This document shows, in pieces, positions 20 through 19,538 of a stretch of 64,000 bases of DNA (positions are counted from its first letter, which is position 1; each line of letters starts with the position of its first letter). The stretch is from Lentisphaerales bacterium. Its GTDB lineage: Bacteria > Verrucomicrobiota > Lentisphaeria > Lentisphaerales > Lentisphaeraceae. The notes under the pieces are model-generated. The model ran no database searches. It had not been told where the DNA came from and saw only the letters and a list, made by a program, of their open reading frames with translations. Location of the stretch: positions 62,001 to 126,000 of the forward strand of contig JAKVBD010000004.1 of assembly GCA_022446985.1 (NCBI GenBank), written 5' to 3'. A program made the position numbers and the translations under genes.

Positions 20-189
20 ATTTACTTTCACATGATGAATCATTAAGAGGTTGAGCTTCTCATGGTTTGTTAGAAAAATTTCTCAAATAAAAAAGGCAAT
101 GGGCATGACATCTTGCTTTCAAGGCTTAGCAACGTTATTGTTGCAGGATTAAACAGGCGATCAGCTAATAATAATTTTGAGATAAGAAG
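20..189 (+). promoter_or_regulatory. metZ leader with small hairpin
   Basis: This is the intergenic region between a divergent start at position 6 and metZ. It contains a perfect 5-bp hairpin, GCAAC/GTTGC (129-144, six-base loop), about 45 bases before the metZ start. Methionine genes are often controlled by SAM riboswitches, and an AAGAG followed by TTGAG near 44-54 faintly recalls the start of SAM-I. The conserved core of SAM-I, SAM-II or SAM-V could not be assembled, so no riboswitch is called. The start at 190 has only a weak ribosome binding site (AAGAAG directly upstream). Confidence 0.3.
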
Positions 190-8836: not shown

Positions 8837-8877
8837 CGGTAGCGTTATGTAATTGAAAAAATATGAGAAGTAAAGAG

Positions 8878-8949
8878 AGCGAGTGAACGGATTCGAACCG
8901 TCGACATTCACCTTGGCAAGGTGAAGATCTACCACTGAGCTACACTCGC
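8878..8949 (-). tRNA. tRNA-Gly (GCC), degenerate copy
   Basis: A 72-nt cloverleaf with anticodon GCC in the loop TTGCCAA and T-arm GGTTCGAATCC. It is identical to the neighbouring copy except for one base in the D-stem (GATC instead of GAGC), which breaks the second D-stem pair. It also lacks the encoded CCA that the other copy has. It is the downstream member of the pair. It may still be expressed, but looks like a decaying duplicate. Confidence 0.85.
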
Positions 8950-8973
8950 ATGAGCATCTTAGAAAAAAGTTGG

Positions 8974-9045
8974 AGCGAGTGAACGGATTCGAACCGTCGA
9001 CATTCACCTTGGCAAGGTGAAGCTCTACCACTGAGCTACACTCGC
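8974..9045 (-). tRNA. tRNA-Gly (GCC)
   Basis: A 72-nt glycine tRNA with anticodon GCC, intact acceptor stem (GCGAGTG/CACTCGC), a full four-pair D-stem and the standard T-loop TTCGAAT. The discriminator T is followed by an encoded CCA at 8973-8971. It is the promoter-proximal member of a tandem pair with the copy at 8878, 24 bases apart, so both are likely cut from one transcript. Confidence 0.95.
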
Positions 9046-14160: not shown

Positions 14161-15264
14161 TTAGCCAATAATACCGTTGTCTGTACCGAGGAAGATACCT
14201 TTTAGGTTCATTGTTAGAGCCTCTGGGTTGTTGGATTTTTCCAGTGCAGCTTCTTCTGTGATGATACCTTCGTTGACCAGTTCTAGTAGTCTTTGGTCGA
14301 AAGTCATCATGCCGAACTCTTTTCCTGCAGCGATAGCATTCTCAATCTTACCAATTTTATCTTCTTGAATAAGCTTTTTAATTGTTGAGGTATTGAGCAT
14401 GATTTCATTACATGGAACGACACCTTTCCCAGAAGCGCGAGGCACTAGGCGTTGACAGACGATAGCTTTAACATTTTCAGAAAGAGCTTTTCTCATGGCG
14501 TCTCTCTCTTCATGAGGGTACATGTCTAGAATACGGCTTATGGATTGACCTGCATTTGCTGTGTGCAGTGTTGACATGACCAAGTGACCCGTGTCAGATG
14601 CGGCAATAGCAGACTCTAAACTTTCGCGATCACGCATTTCACCAACAACAATTACGTCAGGGTCCTGTCGAAGTGCGTGTGAAAGTGCAGATTGGAAAGT
14701 AATGACGTCGATACCGACTTCACGTTGTTCGAAAATACATTTTTTGTCGCTGAAGGCATACTCAATCGGGTCTTCAATTGTGATGATATGGCGGTTTTTG
14801 TTATTGTTCATGTATTCGAGCATACAGGCCATAGTGGTTGATTTGCCAGAGCCTGTAGTGCCTGTTACGAGAATTATGCCACGCTCAAAGCAGGCAATTT
14901 CATTGATTACTTGCGGAAGACCAAGAGATTCAAGGGGGAGGACAGTACTTTTAACGTGTCTAAGTGTCATAGAGACAAGACCACGCTGTTTGTGCAAGTT
15001 TGCACGGAAGCGGCCAGCGCCATCTTCTTCAAATGCGAAGTCTGCATCACCAGTTTCTTCAAACTTTTCAATCATTTTCTCTGTGGTTAATTCTCGAACC
15101 GCAGACATTAGAAATTCTTTGTCGGGTACAAAACCCTCGATTTCAAGAAGTGAACCATCAACGCGTAATACGACGGTACTGTTTTCGCGGATATGCCAAT
15201 CTGAAGCGCCCTCTTGAACACCGGTGACCAGTATTGAGTTTAATTTTGAAGTGACTGTAGGCAT
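14161..15264 (-). CDS. pilT: Type IV pilus retraction ATPase PilT
   Basis: A 367-residue hexameric secretion-type ATPase that powers pilus retraction at the inner membrane. Walker A is GTTGSGKS (135-142), followed by the Asp-box region ITIEDPIEY, Walker B IVVGEMRD and the His-box TLHTANA. The N-terminal PAS-like domain (1-110) and the C-terminal helices typical of PilT/PilU are present. The start has AAGGAG upstream. There are no other pilus genes in the window, so it is not in a pil cluster; distinguishing PilT from the accessory PilU is not certain. Confidence 0.9.
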   Translation of the reverse strand: MPTVTSKLNSILVTGVQEGASDWHIRENSTVVLRVDGSLLEIEGFVPDKEFLMSAVRELTTEKMIEKFEETGDADFAFEEDGAGRFRANLHKQRGLVSMTLRHVKSTVLPLESLGLPQVINEIACFERGIILVTGTTGSGKSTTMACMLEYMNNNKNRHIITIEDPIEYAFSDKKCIFEQREVGIDVITFQSALSHALRQDPDVIVVGEMRDRESLESAIAASDTGHLVMSTLHTANAGQSISRILDMYPHEERDAMRKALSENVKAIVCQRLVPRASGKGVVPCNEIMLNTSTIKKLIQEDKIGKIENAIAAGKEFGMMTFDQRLLELVNEGIITEEAALEKSNNPEALTMNLKGIFLGTDNGIIG

Positions 15265-15392
15265 ATTTGCTCCTTATTTCATGCTGAGAGTATTTATTGT
15301 AAGCTTTATTATCGTTTCGCAGCCTCTATAGTGCAAGAGGATAATGTTAAAATCTGACAAAAGTAACTCTTTTGATAGTTCTTGGGGAATTT

Positions 15393-16223
15393 ATGAAGCA
15401 CCGGATTAGTTTTTTAATGCTTATTATTTTGTTTTTGTCTGCTTGTATGAGTATTTCACCAGAGCAGCAGAAAAGGATTATTTATACACATGAGCAGTTA
15501 AGTGTTGGCGGGTTGGATTTAGCGGATGATATTACCTTTGTGTGTATGAGGAATGAATTTTACTCTGGGCGACTGAATAATTTGGTGAGTTGGAAGAATT
15601 CTCAAGAATTGATGAAGAGCGTTGCCGAAGATTACTTAAAAATTGATAAGTTTGTTACGATTGAGGCAGTTGATCAGGTGAAGCTGCAGGACTTTTTTAC
15701 CAACTTAAGAGGAAAGCGTTTAATTCTTTACTTTTCAAGTCATTTATTGTCGAATGGCCATATCATATTTGGCAATGAAGAGAAGCTTGGACTGAAAGTT
15801 TTTGCTGACTATGTGAATAGTCTTCAAGTACCTACTTTACTGATTTTTGATACCTGTTATTCTGCAAAGCTGAAGCCATTTTTGAGTAACAAGAATGTAT
15901 CGGTTTTCTATACGGGTAAGTCAGATGAGTTAGTGTATGATATGCGCATTAAAGGGCAGAAGTTGAGCGTTGATGAGAAGTTTAATTTTCTTCGCAAGTA
16001 TCTGCATGTTATTTATGATTGGCAGGAGCGTAACTTTTCTTTGTTCTCAGTACTTTTTGTTGATTCGTTGATTTCTGGAAGAAAGCCTAATAATTTGGGG
16101 CAACTTTTTGAGCAGATGATTAAAGGTAATGAAGAGGTGAGGAAAGTTTTTGGCATGGGCAAGTATTCACAAATGCAATTTGTTGACTCAGATGCCAATT
16201 GGGGAGAGCTTGAGTTCAAATAA
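15393..16223 (+). CDS. Caspase-like (clan CD) lipoprotein
   Basis: A 276-residue protein from an ATG with GGGGA upstream; the frame is open further upstream but without a better start. A lipoprotein signal peptide ends in LSAC with lipidation Cys18. The rest resembles the p20 fold of caspase-like (C14) peptidases: a strand plus catalytic His, LILYFSSH (H117), and a strand plus catalytic Cys, LLIFDTCYSAK (C155, the DxCYS signature). The length of the linker (38 residues) fits the family. This is a distant match made by motif only. It would be anchored in the periplasm, where caspase-like enzymes are rarely described. The C-terminal 90 residues are unassigned. It is monocistronic, followed by a terminator. 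Confidence 0.65.
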   Translation: MKHRISFLMLIILFLSACMSISPEQQKRIIYTHEQLSVGGLDLADDITFVCMRNEFYSGRLNNLVSWKNSQELMKSVAEDYLKIDKFVTIEAVDQVKLQDFFTNLRGKRLILYFSSHLLSNGHIIFGNEEKLGLKVFADYVNSLQVPTLLIFDTCYSAKLKPFLSNKNVSVFYTGKSDELVYDMRIKGQKLSVDEKFNFLRKYLHVIYDWQERNFSLFSVLFVDSLISGRKPNNLGQLFEQMIKGNEEVRKVFGMGKYSQMQFVDSDANWGELEFK

Positions 16224-16246
16224 AAAAAGCCGCTTAAAGCGGCTTT
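16222..16246 (-). terminator. Terminator of rplU
   Basis: A 9-bp stem, AAAGCCGCT/AGCGGCTTT, with a three-base loop (16226-16246). On the minus strand it is followed by a run of T residues, so it ends rplU. On the plus strand it may also serve the caspase-like lipoprotein gene. Confidence 0.8.
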
Positions 16247-16265: not shown

Positions 16266-16574
16266 TTAAGCTTTGATGCCTGTAATTTTTACAGTGCTGT
16301 AAATCTGTCTGTGGCCTTGTTTTCTTCTGTAGCTTTTACGTCTTTTCATTTTGAAAACAACGATTTTCTTAGCTTTAGATTCGCCAAGTAGTTCGTAAGC
16401 AACATTTGCACCATCGATGAATGGAGTACCGAATTTTGGCTCTTCGCCACCAACAGCAAGAACTTTGTCGAAAGAAGAAGTACTGCCAGCTTCACCTTGC
16501 AGGCGTTCTACTTGAATGACATCGCCTTCCTGCACTTTATATTGTTTTCCGCCTGTCTCAATAACTGCGTACAT
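16266..16574 (-). CDS. rplU: 50S ribosomal protein L21
   Basis: A 102-residue ribosomal protein starting MYAVIETGGKQYKVQEGD, the L21 signature, and ending with the basic segment KMKRRKSYRRKQGHRQ that contacts 23S rRNA. Length is normal. In most bacteria rplU is followed by rpmA (L27), but here it stands alone with its own terminator, so rpmA must lie elsewhere. AAGGAT precedes the start. Confidence 0.95.
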   Translation of the reverse strand: MYAVIETGGKQYKVQEGDVIQVERLQGEAGSTSSFDKVLAVGGEEPKFGTPFIDGANVAYELLGESKAKKIVVFKMKRRKSYRRKQGHRQIYSTVKITGIKA

Positions 16575-16679: not shown

Positions 16680-19538
16680 TTACAAGTCACTGATAATGTT
16701 TATTTCTTCACTTACATGAACCGTTGAAACGGCGACTAAATCTTCCGGAAGTTGAGAGATAACATCGACCTCATAATTGGCCTTAATTTCAATGTCAAGT
16801 CCACCATCTCTGTTGGTGACCCAGTCGACACTTATATAGCCATGTGGAGTTGGGATTTTGGATTTTACCCACTCGACAGGACCTGGTAAAGGGTTGAAAT
16901 ATACTTGTTTGTAGCCTGGGGCTGCAGGTCTAATACCAGCGATATCTGTAAAGACGTAAATATTTGGTGAAACCCCATAGCCATGGCATAAACTTGAATT
17001 GAGGGTAGGGGTTGTTTTAAGGGTTGGATTGAAGAATTCCCACCAGGTTGAGGCGCCAGCTTTTATCATGTCTCCCCAGTACCACTTTATGAAGTCAATT
17101 GCCCATTCGCGTTTGTTGAGGCCAAAAGCCGTTTCGAGTACGAAGTAGTTGAAGAATGGGTTGAGTAAATTAGTGGTCGGCAGTTTAAAGTATGGTGATT
17201 CTTCGAGGAAAATATTGTCGAAGATTGTGTTGTAGTCACCAGGGTTTGGTAGTGAGCCGTACATGGCGAGTACGTTAGTGTGTAATGTGTAGGACTCCGA
17301 CCTTTGGCTATTTGCATAACAGTCTGCAAAGAGACCACGATCTTCATTCCAGCATAAGTCTCTAATGGTTTTGGCTACATGTTTAGCACGATTTCTTACA
17401 GTGCTTGCAGAATCTGGTATATTTGCATAGTCAAAGATCCAAGCTGCAGAATGAAGGGCTCTGCAGTATAGCGCATTGAGACCTGTAACAATGCCTTGTC
17501 GGTCGATATCTTCATGATCGAGGAAGCAGAGTTCACCTAGATTTCCGCCCAGGACTTCAAGCTCAGGAAGAGCCAGACTGTTGTAGTAGTCCATGAGGTG
17601 GCCAAGAGTAGGCAGGCAGATCTCAAGTAAATCTCTGTCATCTGTATATAACAGGTGCTTCTGAAGCCATTTTACCCAATGGAGAGGGTAGTCTGGGATA
17701 TTAAAATAAATATCACTCGGGCAGGCACCGGGTATTTCACCAGTTTCGAATTGCTGTGTGGCAAATTCTATAAGAGCTTTACGTGAGAGAGTGTCAGTGC
17801 CCATTGTTTGCAGGCTGGCCATTGCCTGGATTGCAGCATCTGCAATATATTGACAAGCGTCTCCAGAGGGTGTGTCGACAAAATTATATTTTGAGCAGCT
17901 TTCTAGGGTCTGTAGGCCTACTTGGTAGATTCCGTTTATAATTTCATCGTTAGAAGAGAATTTACCTTTCATTTCTTCTTGTACACCAATGACGCGTAGA
18001 GCAGGGTTCTTTATGAAGCAACTTTCTTTGGCGTCTCTGACATGGATTGCTAAGTATCTGAATGAACGGGTATTTTGGGTTGACCAAGTGATTTCTTCTT
18101 GAGGTAGGATGATAGTGTCTGACTGTCTACCATGGTTACTGTGCAGTGGCAGTAGTTTACCATCGATGCTCAATTCGCCGTAAATGATGTCTATAATATC
18201 TCCTGAGTTTCCAGAAAATGTAATGAGTGGTGTTCCACTGGCGCATTTTCCAAGATCTAGTATAACGTATTCACTAGAGCTGAGTTCTAGGAAGCCAAGA
18301 GGTTCTTCTGTTACTGAACTTGGAGTGAAATCCAGAGACATGAGGTAGGCAGAGGTGTCACAAGGTCTAAGATTGTGATAGGAGACCTGTTGCATTTGAT
18401 CAAAGTTTAATAGGCCTGAAATATGAGAGAATGGAATAAGAAGAGGTCCAGCTAGTTTCCAGCCAAGTGTTGGTTCCTCTGCAGGTTTCTGGACTGCTTG
18501 CATTTCTGCCGCAGGGAAATTATGAAAGTTTATTGTTATACCTGCTGAATTGTGATCTCCGTAGTATATAACGATTACGTTGTTCCAGCCTTGTTGGATT
18601 TGAGCATGGCAATGAGAGTTACTTTCTATGCCTTCAAGGCAAGTCATCGGCTTGAGCCAATCAGGGTCAGCTCCATTTAGGGAGCGTTGGTCGCCTTGTG
18701 AATTAACTAGGCTTCCATTAATAAATAGCTTATACGAGTCGTCGCAATGTACAAAGACCTCTTCCTGAAAGGCATTTGCGCTATGAAATGAGCAATGTGC
18801 AACATAGGTGCCCGGCGTTGTAATTATCTGATTGAATTCGACATTTAAAGAGGCTTTGTCAGGTCTTGTAAGTCCACGTGCTGTTATATTTTTGAAATGG
18901 ATCTGAGAACTTGTGAATTCAGGTAGTTGTCAAGGTAAAAGTTCATGAGGCGAAACTGCTGAAATAATATAAGCTTCAGACCATTCATGAGGACTTTTGA
19001 TAGTTAAGTCAGCAGAGTCTTTGGTCTCAAAGATTTTATTCCATTGGCGATTATAATTTCTCAGATCTTGTGTCTCAACGAAGCCGTGTGAGGTAGATAT
19101 TCTAAATTGATTTGGAAGCATATGTTGAGCTTTTGCAGTAGTCCAGGTGTCATCGGTGGCAAAATGGCTAGTGTCATCGATGTTAACTTGGACCCATAAG
19201 CCATCGCTTTGTTTAGTATTGCTTAGACGTGAGATTTGAGGGTTGCTGGCTTGGATGCTTATGATATTTTTACCTGTTTGCAGCAGGTGTGTGATGTTGA
19301 AGTATTGAACATATGAGTGGGTTCTGATGGATGGGCATGGTCCAAAAGAAAGGTGTTGCTCATTAATATAGATATTGAAATACGTGTGACAGCTGATCCA
19401 CATCTCGGCAATGCCTGGAACTTCATTTAAGGTGAACTTACGGCGGAAAAATACGTGAGATTCACGATAAGGTTGGGTTTCTGGCTCAGACCAGATCCAG
19501 TTACCGAACAAGCCGTCAGGTAAAGCGATATCAGACAT
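16680..19538 (-). pseudogene. GH78-like alpha-L-rhamnosidase interrupted by one in-frame stop
   Basis: One continuous frame of 952 codons is broken only by TGA at 18932-18930 (codon 203), in the context HELLP-stop-QLPEF. CGA (Arg) to TGA is the simplest origin. The N-terminal part (1-202) has the beta-sandwich typical of GH78 enzymes (WIWSEPE, FFRRKF, YFNIYIN). The rest carries the jelly-roll lead (LDLG, IIDIIYGE) and the six-hairpin catalytic domain with DTPSGD near 555 and GASTWWEFF near 828 (candidate acid Glu), then CHGYGVSP. Such enzymes remove terminal L-rhamnose from plant or algal glycans. No signal peptide is seen at the start. An ATG at 18647 gives a 655-residue open piece that lacks the N-terminal domains and is unlikely to be a true start. 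Confidence 0.85.

Follow-up and report, generated by a model that had tools for sequence, protein, structure and literature searches.

A predicted caspase-fold lipoprotein of a Lentisphaerales bacterium and the association of its family with FecR-domain and CHASE2-cyclase genes

The window analysed here is a 64,000-nucleotide stretch on contig C206 of the 6.3 Mb genome of a Lentisphaerales bacterium (G000), and it encodes a caspase-like lipoprotein, P0001 (Table 1). The ORF runs from an ATG to a TAA codon; an alternative upstream TTG start at 15372 would add seven residues ahead of the signal peptide. The gene lies between a pilT-type ATPase gene and rplU, and an inverted repeat is found on the rplU side, where one repeat was detected against a mean of 0.8 in shuffled sequences. 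The pilT gene also adjoins the caspase-like gene in the sister genome (G001) and in a genome from a second genus of the same family (G002), and pilT and rplU are directly adjacent without a caspase-like gene in three genomes of a third genus (G003, G004 and G005). The sister genome encodes a full-length homologue at the same place with 33% identity, which makes the caspase-like gene the least conserved among ten syntenic genes, the others exhibiting 58-97% identity. Elsewhere in the window, a rhamnosidase-like gene named by eye (16680-19538, minus strand) carries one in-frame stop and corresponds to a single 953-residue frame in the sister, and a tandem pair of tRNA-Gly (gcc) genes is located at 8877-9045 on the minus strand.

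Table 1. Features at the caspase-like locus (window coordinates).
Feature	Position	Strand	Basis
Caspase-like lipoprotein gene P0001, 276 aa	15393..16223	+	ORF; homologues in genome searches
Type II signal peptide with lipobox L15-S16-A17-C18; Cys codon 15444-15446	15393..15446	+	Sequence
Predicted caspase p20-type core, residues 45-190	15525..15962	+	AF2 models, structure matches
H117, predicted catalytic His	15741..15743	+	hhalign pairing with Pfam-recognised C14 His; 13/17 members
D153, invariant Asp, two before Cys	15849..15851	+	17/17 members
C155, predicted catalytic Cys	15855..15857	+	hhalign pairing; 16/17 members
Inverted repeat between convergent caspase-like gene and rplU	16226..16246	.	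Terminator-like score on - strand
pilT-type ATPase, divergent neighbour	14161..15264	-	Named by eye from sequence
rplU (ribosomal protein L21), convergent neighbour	16266..16574	-	Named by eye

The N-terminus of P0001, MKHRISFLMLIILFLSAC, resembles a type II signal peptide with an LSAC lipobox and Cys18, and by pattern and eye the protein thus carries the signal peptide, lipobox and Cys of a bacterial lipoprotein. The lipobox pattern is also present in three of the five other Lentisphaeria members of the family (G002, G013 and G023), and a lipobox was recognised by eye in G001. One further match to the pattern occurs in the second class (G476), and none in the members of G017 or G329. Nearly all members have a signal peptide-like start by eye, the start in G453 being ambiguous. 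The motifs S-S-H117 and D153-T-C155-Y-S are present with a His-Cys spacing of 38 residues. The bare pattern H-(25..70)-DxC is found in 6 of the 52 stop-to-stop frames of the window that have at least 150 residues, and in 1560 of 20,000 shuffles of the ORF; when each part must also be preceded by hydrophobic residues, the numbers fall to one of 52 frames and 70 of 20,000 shuffles. The motif by itself is weak evidence for the caspase reading, and it rises above chance because of the sister homologue, the conservation of His, Asp and Cys, and the predicted fold. H117, D153 and C155 are invariant in the first seven aligned sequences (P0001 and six homologues).

P0001 does not match any Pfam family, a sequence search against the PDB gave nothing useful, and NCBIfam returned just three weak matches far under their cut-offs. 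PADLOC gave no match for the three family members scanned, a scan of viral contigs found no relative of P0001, and a scan of genome contigs recovered the sister gene alone. A six-row family profile (A2) reached two Pfam-recognised Peptidase_C14 proteins, and hhalign paired H117 and C155 with the dyad of these proteins (E 4.6e-9, probability 96). P0001 scores below the gathering cut-off of Peptidase_C14 (PF00656), and the best score among the ten of 17 members scanned was 13 bits (L012) against a cut-off of 21.4; P0001 is therefore placed as a relative, not as a member, of Peptidase_C14. The legumain-type C13 family (PF01650) does not match P0001 and has no match at E<=0.001 in the window's genome. 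With the models described below, the P0001 family is placed as a putative new caspase-fold family of clan CD.

The AF2 model of P0001, built from two sequences, has a low mean pLDDT of 46.5. The model of the sister protein is also low on average (56.1), with blocks at 65-91 within residues 91-180. Residues 47-172 of the P0001 model exhibit an alternation of strands and helices like that of a p20 domain, and an alpha/beta p20-type core of clan CD is predicted, at low model confidence, at residues ~45-190 of both models; the C-terminal ~85 residues (~190-276) are without a confident model in either. H117 and C155 follow predicted strands 109-114 and 148-152, so that the model and the C14 pairing together place a His-Cys dyad at the ends of core strands as in the clan CD caspase fold. 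In the VIA comparison, the best match of the P0001 model was metacaspase-4 (Z 11.8, rmsd 2.9, 138 aligned); lower ranks were taken by GPI transamidase chain K, CHAT, legumain, caspases and Raptor. The matches also include Raptor/Kog1 chains of TOR complexes, which carry a caspase-like domain, and a chain of a type VI effector complex (9qpe_G). For the sister model, metacaspase-4 was matched with Z 12.7 (rmsd 2.5, 139 aligned), and the 50 VIA matches listed (Z 10.6-12.7) comprise metacaspases, GPI transamidase chain K, legumains, caspases and MALT1, all of which we take to belong to clan CD.

Foldseek gave no match at E<=0.001 with the P0001 model, the weaker matches being a mixture of caspases, dehydroquinases and Raptor, and all 17 matches of the sister model at E<=0.001 are metacaspases, CHAT or CED-3. 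Type II dehydroquinases appear in Foldseek from E 6.7e-3 for P0001 and 1.6e-2 for the sister and were rejected as reflecting a shared alpha/beta arrangement; they are absent among the 50 VIA matches listed for each protein. Families C11, C25 and C80 are likewise absent among the structure matches listed, which does not speak against a relationship to them. Judged from these models, P0001 almost certainly adopts a caspase fold. The preliminary description had reported the place, strand, length, lipobox and both motifs of the protein, and all of these were confirmed. It had asked for structure prediction and comparison with metacaspases, and it named a lack of the alpha/beta sandwich or of His/Cys conservation as grounds for rejection. 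Both are present, metacaspase-4 is the top VIA match of P0001, the Foldseek matches of the sister below that threshold all have the caspase fold, and the caspase-like lipoprotein reading is supported.

Overlapping samples were searched (59 relatives, 387 genomes from the phylum, 197 from the class and 286 from a second class). Together with the inspection of one gene neighbourhood, which added one member, this yielded a family of 17 members in 16 genomes. Matches were obtained in 8 of 387, 7 of 197 and 11 of 286 genomes, and 6, 6 and 9 of these were counted as members after exclusions; at most the best 12 candidates per genome were scored in the 197-genome search and the best eight in the 286-genome search. 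Genome searching has false negatives, as the 286-genome search did not report G497. G023 was found in the class search and is unlisted in the phylum search, where it was probably not drawn. The six Lentisphaeria members are those of G000, G001, G002, G013, G017 and G023, and the second class contributes 11 copies in ten genomes (G329, G453, G456, G460, G461, G466 with two copies, G470, G476, G497 and G586).

Matches in G095 and G299 were dropped as Pfam-recognised C14 proteins, one of the two G299 matches having been scanned, and the match in G119 was dropped as a canonical-looking C14 protein by eye. Also dropped were a C13/C14-type lipoprotein on contig C77 of G017 and, by eye, a protein of the same second type in G020. 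The former (L016, 1108-2016, plus strand) represents a second clan CD-like type within the same bacterial class, with a lipobox by eye and a Pfam score above the cut-off for C13 and just below it for C14; the latter (L018, 1095-2060, minus strand) looks like it and also has a lipobox by eye. A large protein at L013 (256-3252, minus strand) carries ankyrin and Sel1 repeats together with a caspase domain that Pfam recognises. A caspase-like domain followed by Transglut_core2 and TPR repeats is found in G017 and G023 (L003, 1474-3357, and L005, 1210-3048, both on the plus strand); this fusion was set aside as a functional clue, the single Transglut_core2 match in the window's genome being a stand-alone protein.

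Both His and Cys are kept in 13 of the 17 members, including all six from Lentisphaeria. The four copies without the His lie in three genomes: G460 and G470 each have Gln at this position, and G466 has one copy with Leu, in which Cys is also replaced by Ser, and one with Tyr. These copies sit in frames of 272-322 residues. With the His lost in four copies, catalysis is dispensable for some members. The gene of G586 is broken, with the His in one frame and the Cys in another, and it is counted as keeping both letters, not as an intact gene. A tree of 16 members, drawn without G586, nests the Leu/Ser copy of G466 among intact members and places the other three near G497; the tree thus draws two origins of His loss, and a single origin is possible. 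The counts for the dyad, and those for linkage and co-occurrence below, come from related genomes and do not represent independent events.

Caspase-like, FecR-domain and CHASE2-cyclase genes occur in a row in seven of the ten second-class carriers (G329, G453, G456, G461, G476, G497 and G586), and five of these seven linked sets include a beta-barrel-type gene. The order in G453, G456 and G461 is barrel-type, FecR-domain, caspase-like and CHASE2-cyclase gene. In G476 the barrel-type and FecR genes have changed places, and in G329 the cyclase gene runs divergently to the other three. The sets of G586 and G497 begin with the cyclase gene, followed by the FecR and then the caspase-like gene, with no barrel gene seen. 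Pfam identified FecR in the proteins scanned from G023, G329 and G456, CHASE2 and Guanylate_cyc in those from G000 and G456, and an Autotransporter beta-domain in the barrel protein of G329; the barrel-type protein of G456 had no Pfam match. The caspase-like gene of G497 was found by inspecting the region beside its CHASE2-cyclase gene, a small prediction that was borne out. No caspase-like gene lies beside the cyclase gene in G010, G015, G030, G052 or G382. Barrel-type genes stand beside the His-less copies of G460 and G470, and no cyclase gene was seen near these copies in the 13 kb read for G460 or on the whole 6.6 kb contig of G470. In G466, neither a barrel-type gene nor a cyclase gene occurs within 13 kb around each copy.

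Neither the window's genome nor any other Lentisphaeria carrier was seen to have the three genes linked; the only linked pair is that of G023, where a FecR gene lies immediately before the caspase-like gene. The contigs of G002, G017 and G023 are short. The window's genome co-encodes all three components at unlinked places, with the caspase-like gene on C206, the cyclase gene, which adjoins a kinase-like gene, on C101, and a FecR-type gene on C208 whose product is of the same kind (158 bits). This FecR type is also encoded in G001, G002, G013 and G017, and some of the 12 FecR matches in each of the non-carriers G003-G005 were examined for it. The FecR-type protein is secreted and has a coiled-coil-like stretch and an Arg/Lys-rich tail: the last 40 residues contain 8-17 Arg/Lys against 2-7 Asp/Glu in 12 of 13 proteins, that of G017 being cut off. 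The FecR-type gene of the window's genome (L107, 5562-8145) and a sigma-factor-like gene are divergently oriented, and an anti-sigma-like gene comes after the latter; these names were given by eye. FecR-domain matches number 31 in G000 and 37 in G001 against 1-12 in eight other genomes searched, and FecR is expanded in the genus of G000 and G001.

Pfam CHASE2 was detected in all seven carrier genomes tested and in none of three same-family genomes without a caspase-like gene. A profile of the extracytoplasmic part of the cyclase was used to delimit a subtype, set by us as matches of over 230 bits across most of the profile, with the contig-end pieces of G017 and G023 added; at most the best seven candidates per genome were scored in Lentisphaeria and the best five in the second class. 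Nineteen of the 197 Lentisphaeria genomes match the profile, and 11 have the long subtype, comprising all six carriers and five of the other 191 genomes (G010, G015, G030, G052 and G382), for which no caspase-like gene was reported. Over ~510 residues, the piece in G017 shares 47% and that in G023 45% identity with the cyclase of the window's genome, against 31% for the other CHASE2 protein of that genome. The profile matches 95 of the 286 second-class genomes; eight have the subtype, and seven of these are carriers. In the eighth, G471, the cyclase gene lies close to the edge of a 4 kb contig, which ends before the neighbour.

The subtype is thus present in 13 of 13 genomes that keep both dyad letters and was found in none of the three with His-less copies alone among the best candidates scored (five of seven in G460, five of 19 in G466 and five of six in G470). 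These three genomes carry other CHASE2 proteins, with best pieces of 76-101 bits, and the absence of the subtype from them is not firm. Towards low scores the boundary of the subtype is soft: G497 reaches 235 bits, G586 244 bits and the next match 114.5, a separation that is mainly one of match length, and the score per position is scarcely higher in these two (0.50-0.54) than in another CHASE2 protein, one of G329 (0.43).

P0001 shares with Peptidase_C14, orthocaspases and metacaspases (PF00656; plant metacaspase-4 and yeast Yca1 structures) a common p20-type core and the places of the His and of the Asp-x-Cys, and differs from them in having no Pfam C14 match, an export signal with lipobox and a short, 38-residue His-Cys spacing; no p10 is recognised in the protein, whose C-terminal ~85 residues have no confident model. 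Clostripain-type C11 enzymes such as fragipain and the gingipains are, as is predicted for P0001, exported clan CD peptidases with a His-Cys dyad, whereas P0001 has no Pfam match to any family. Bacteroides C11 enzymes are lipid-anchored. Fragipain, a clostripain-related enzyme that needs its His-Cys dyad, matures exported proteins in Bacteroides according to the available text of PMC8406203. Pseudo-orthocaspases, described in the accessible part of PMC6426788 as 8.6% of bacterial caspase homologues, with 90% of cases alphaproteobacterial or cyanobacterial, resemble the four family members with substituted dyads, and the combination of Gln with a retained Cys, seen twice here, is reported there as well; P0001 is unlike them in that its dyad is intact. 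The preliminary description held that caspase-like proteins anchored in the envelope are rarely described, which is too strong in one respect: as excerpted, a 2012 survey of 671 prokaryotic caspase homologues lists 98 as membrane and 30 as extracellular by annotation, with 529 sequences lacking localisation information (PMC3501461).

A metacaspase-CHASE2 fusion protein is known from Trichodesmium erythraeum in the accessible portions of PMC3501461 and PMC2853523, and as in the present family a caspase fold is there tied to a CHASE2 receptor. The Trichodesmium arrangement is a single protein, for which the excerpts name no cyclase and predict a cytoplasmic caspase domain (PMC3501461), whereas the proteins here are separate, a cyclase is the output, and the caspase fold is expected outside, on the side where CHASE2 also lies. 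The BiofilmReg operon of Burkholderia encodes a FecR-domain protein with a signal peptide beside a CHASE2 histidine kinase, and this adjacency resembles the sets described above (PMC5192318, in the part available). Its output differs, consisting of a histidine kinase and a response regulator; its FecR protein carries LysM, and no caspase-like protein is named in that part, which also calls the signals of CHASE2 receptors unknown. CHASE2 is further mentioned in connection with TRADD-N systems in the available text of PMC8195603. No description of an exported caspase-like protein associated with FecR and a CHASE2-cyclase was found among the listings and the cited passages obtained by searching an open-access library.

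P0001 is interpreted as an envelope-anchored caspase-fold peptidase belonging to a FecR/CHASE2-cyclase signalling set, a reading in which catalysis, substrate and signalling are predicted and to which we assign a probability of roughly 0.45. As a rival, P0001 could be a stand-alone surface maturation protease that trims exported or surface proteins, the FecR/CHASE2 linkage being merely regulatory. The lipobox, the caspase fold and the absence of a close same-strand neighbour in the window agree with such a role, for which clostripain-like and gingipain-type enzymes of clan CD may serve as a parallel; it leaves the FecR/CHASE2-cyclase gene set and the tie between dyad and cyclase unexplained, and we consider it somewhat unlikely. 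The loss of the His in four of 17 copies, one of which has lost the Cys too, would suit a non-catalytic scaffold that uses the caspase fold as a binding module and cuts no peptide, as is presumed for pseudo-orthocaspases. This appears rather improbable for P0001, which together with the five other Lentisphaeria members keeps His, Asp and Cys despite the low conservation of the protein (33% against the sister).

The neighbouring pilT gene might instead suggest a partner of type IV pili or twitching, as the two genes adjoin in three genomes of two genera. Their transcription is divergent, rplU lies on the other side, the pilT-rplU pair exists without the gene in three relatives, and the gene resides elsewhere in other lineages, all of which makes a pilus role very improbable. 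A role as effector of regulated cell death has hardly any likelihood: its sole basis is that caspase homologues of prokaryotes are in general associated with such a role, and it is opposed by the export signal, by the lack of a PADLOC match in the three family members scanned and by the lack, by eye, of an immunity gene beside P0001 in the window.

The proposed signalling set consists of the peptidase, a secreted FecR-domain protein and a nucleotidyl cyclase with a CHASE2 receptor. CHASE2, FecR, the barrel and a signal-bearing caspase-like protein face the periplasm or outer membrane, and the cyclase domain alone faces the cytoplasm. P0001 is most likely an active cysteine peptidase in the outer membrane that would act in the periplasm, its catalysis and location both being predicted, and a lipid tether would hold the peptidase in most Lentisphaeria members. 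The Asp two positions before the Cys of metacaspases occupies an S1-pocket position that favours Arg/Lys, and by analogy D153 suggests a similar preference in P0001. Upon perturbation of the envelope, the peptidase would cut a periplasmic partner, for which the basic tail of the FecR-type protein and the CHASE2 ectodomain of the cyclase are candidates; cleavage of the tail is speculation, and the tail may alternatively bind the membrane or another partner and contain no cleavage site. Cutting of the partner would then switch the cyclic-nucleotide output, and no simpler mechanism would give every component a role. The unlinked genes of the window's organism would presumably still work together. 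Counting against this mechanism are that lack of linkage, the copies that have lost the His, and the five genomes that encode the cyclase but have no caspase-like gene reported. Processing of surface proteins and a damage response, both suggested for this protein at the outset, gained neither support nor contradiction here; the evidence points more to a signalling partnership.

The family may represent an undescribed route by which extracytoplasmic caspase-fold proteolysis sets the inner level of a cyclic nucleotide and the peptidase degenerates where the cyclase is lost, a possible though doubtful extension of the signalling reading. To our knowledge, it is known for few bacterial caspase homologues what they cleave in nature. 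The present family, which escapes recognition by Pfam, is accompanied by named candidate partners that should share its compartment, which makes a natural substrate directly testable. If the signalling reading holds, extracytoplasmic proteolysis would be joined with cyclic-nucleotide signalling, and CHASE2 receptors would gain a candidate input.
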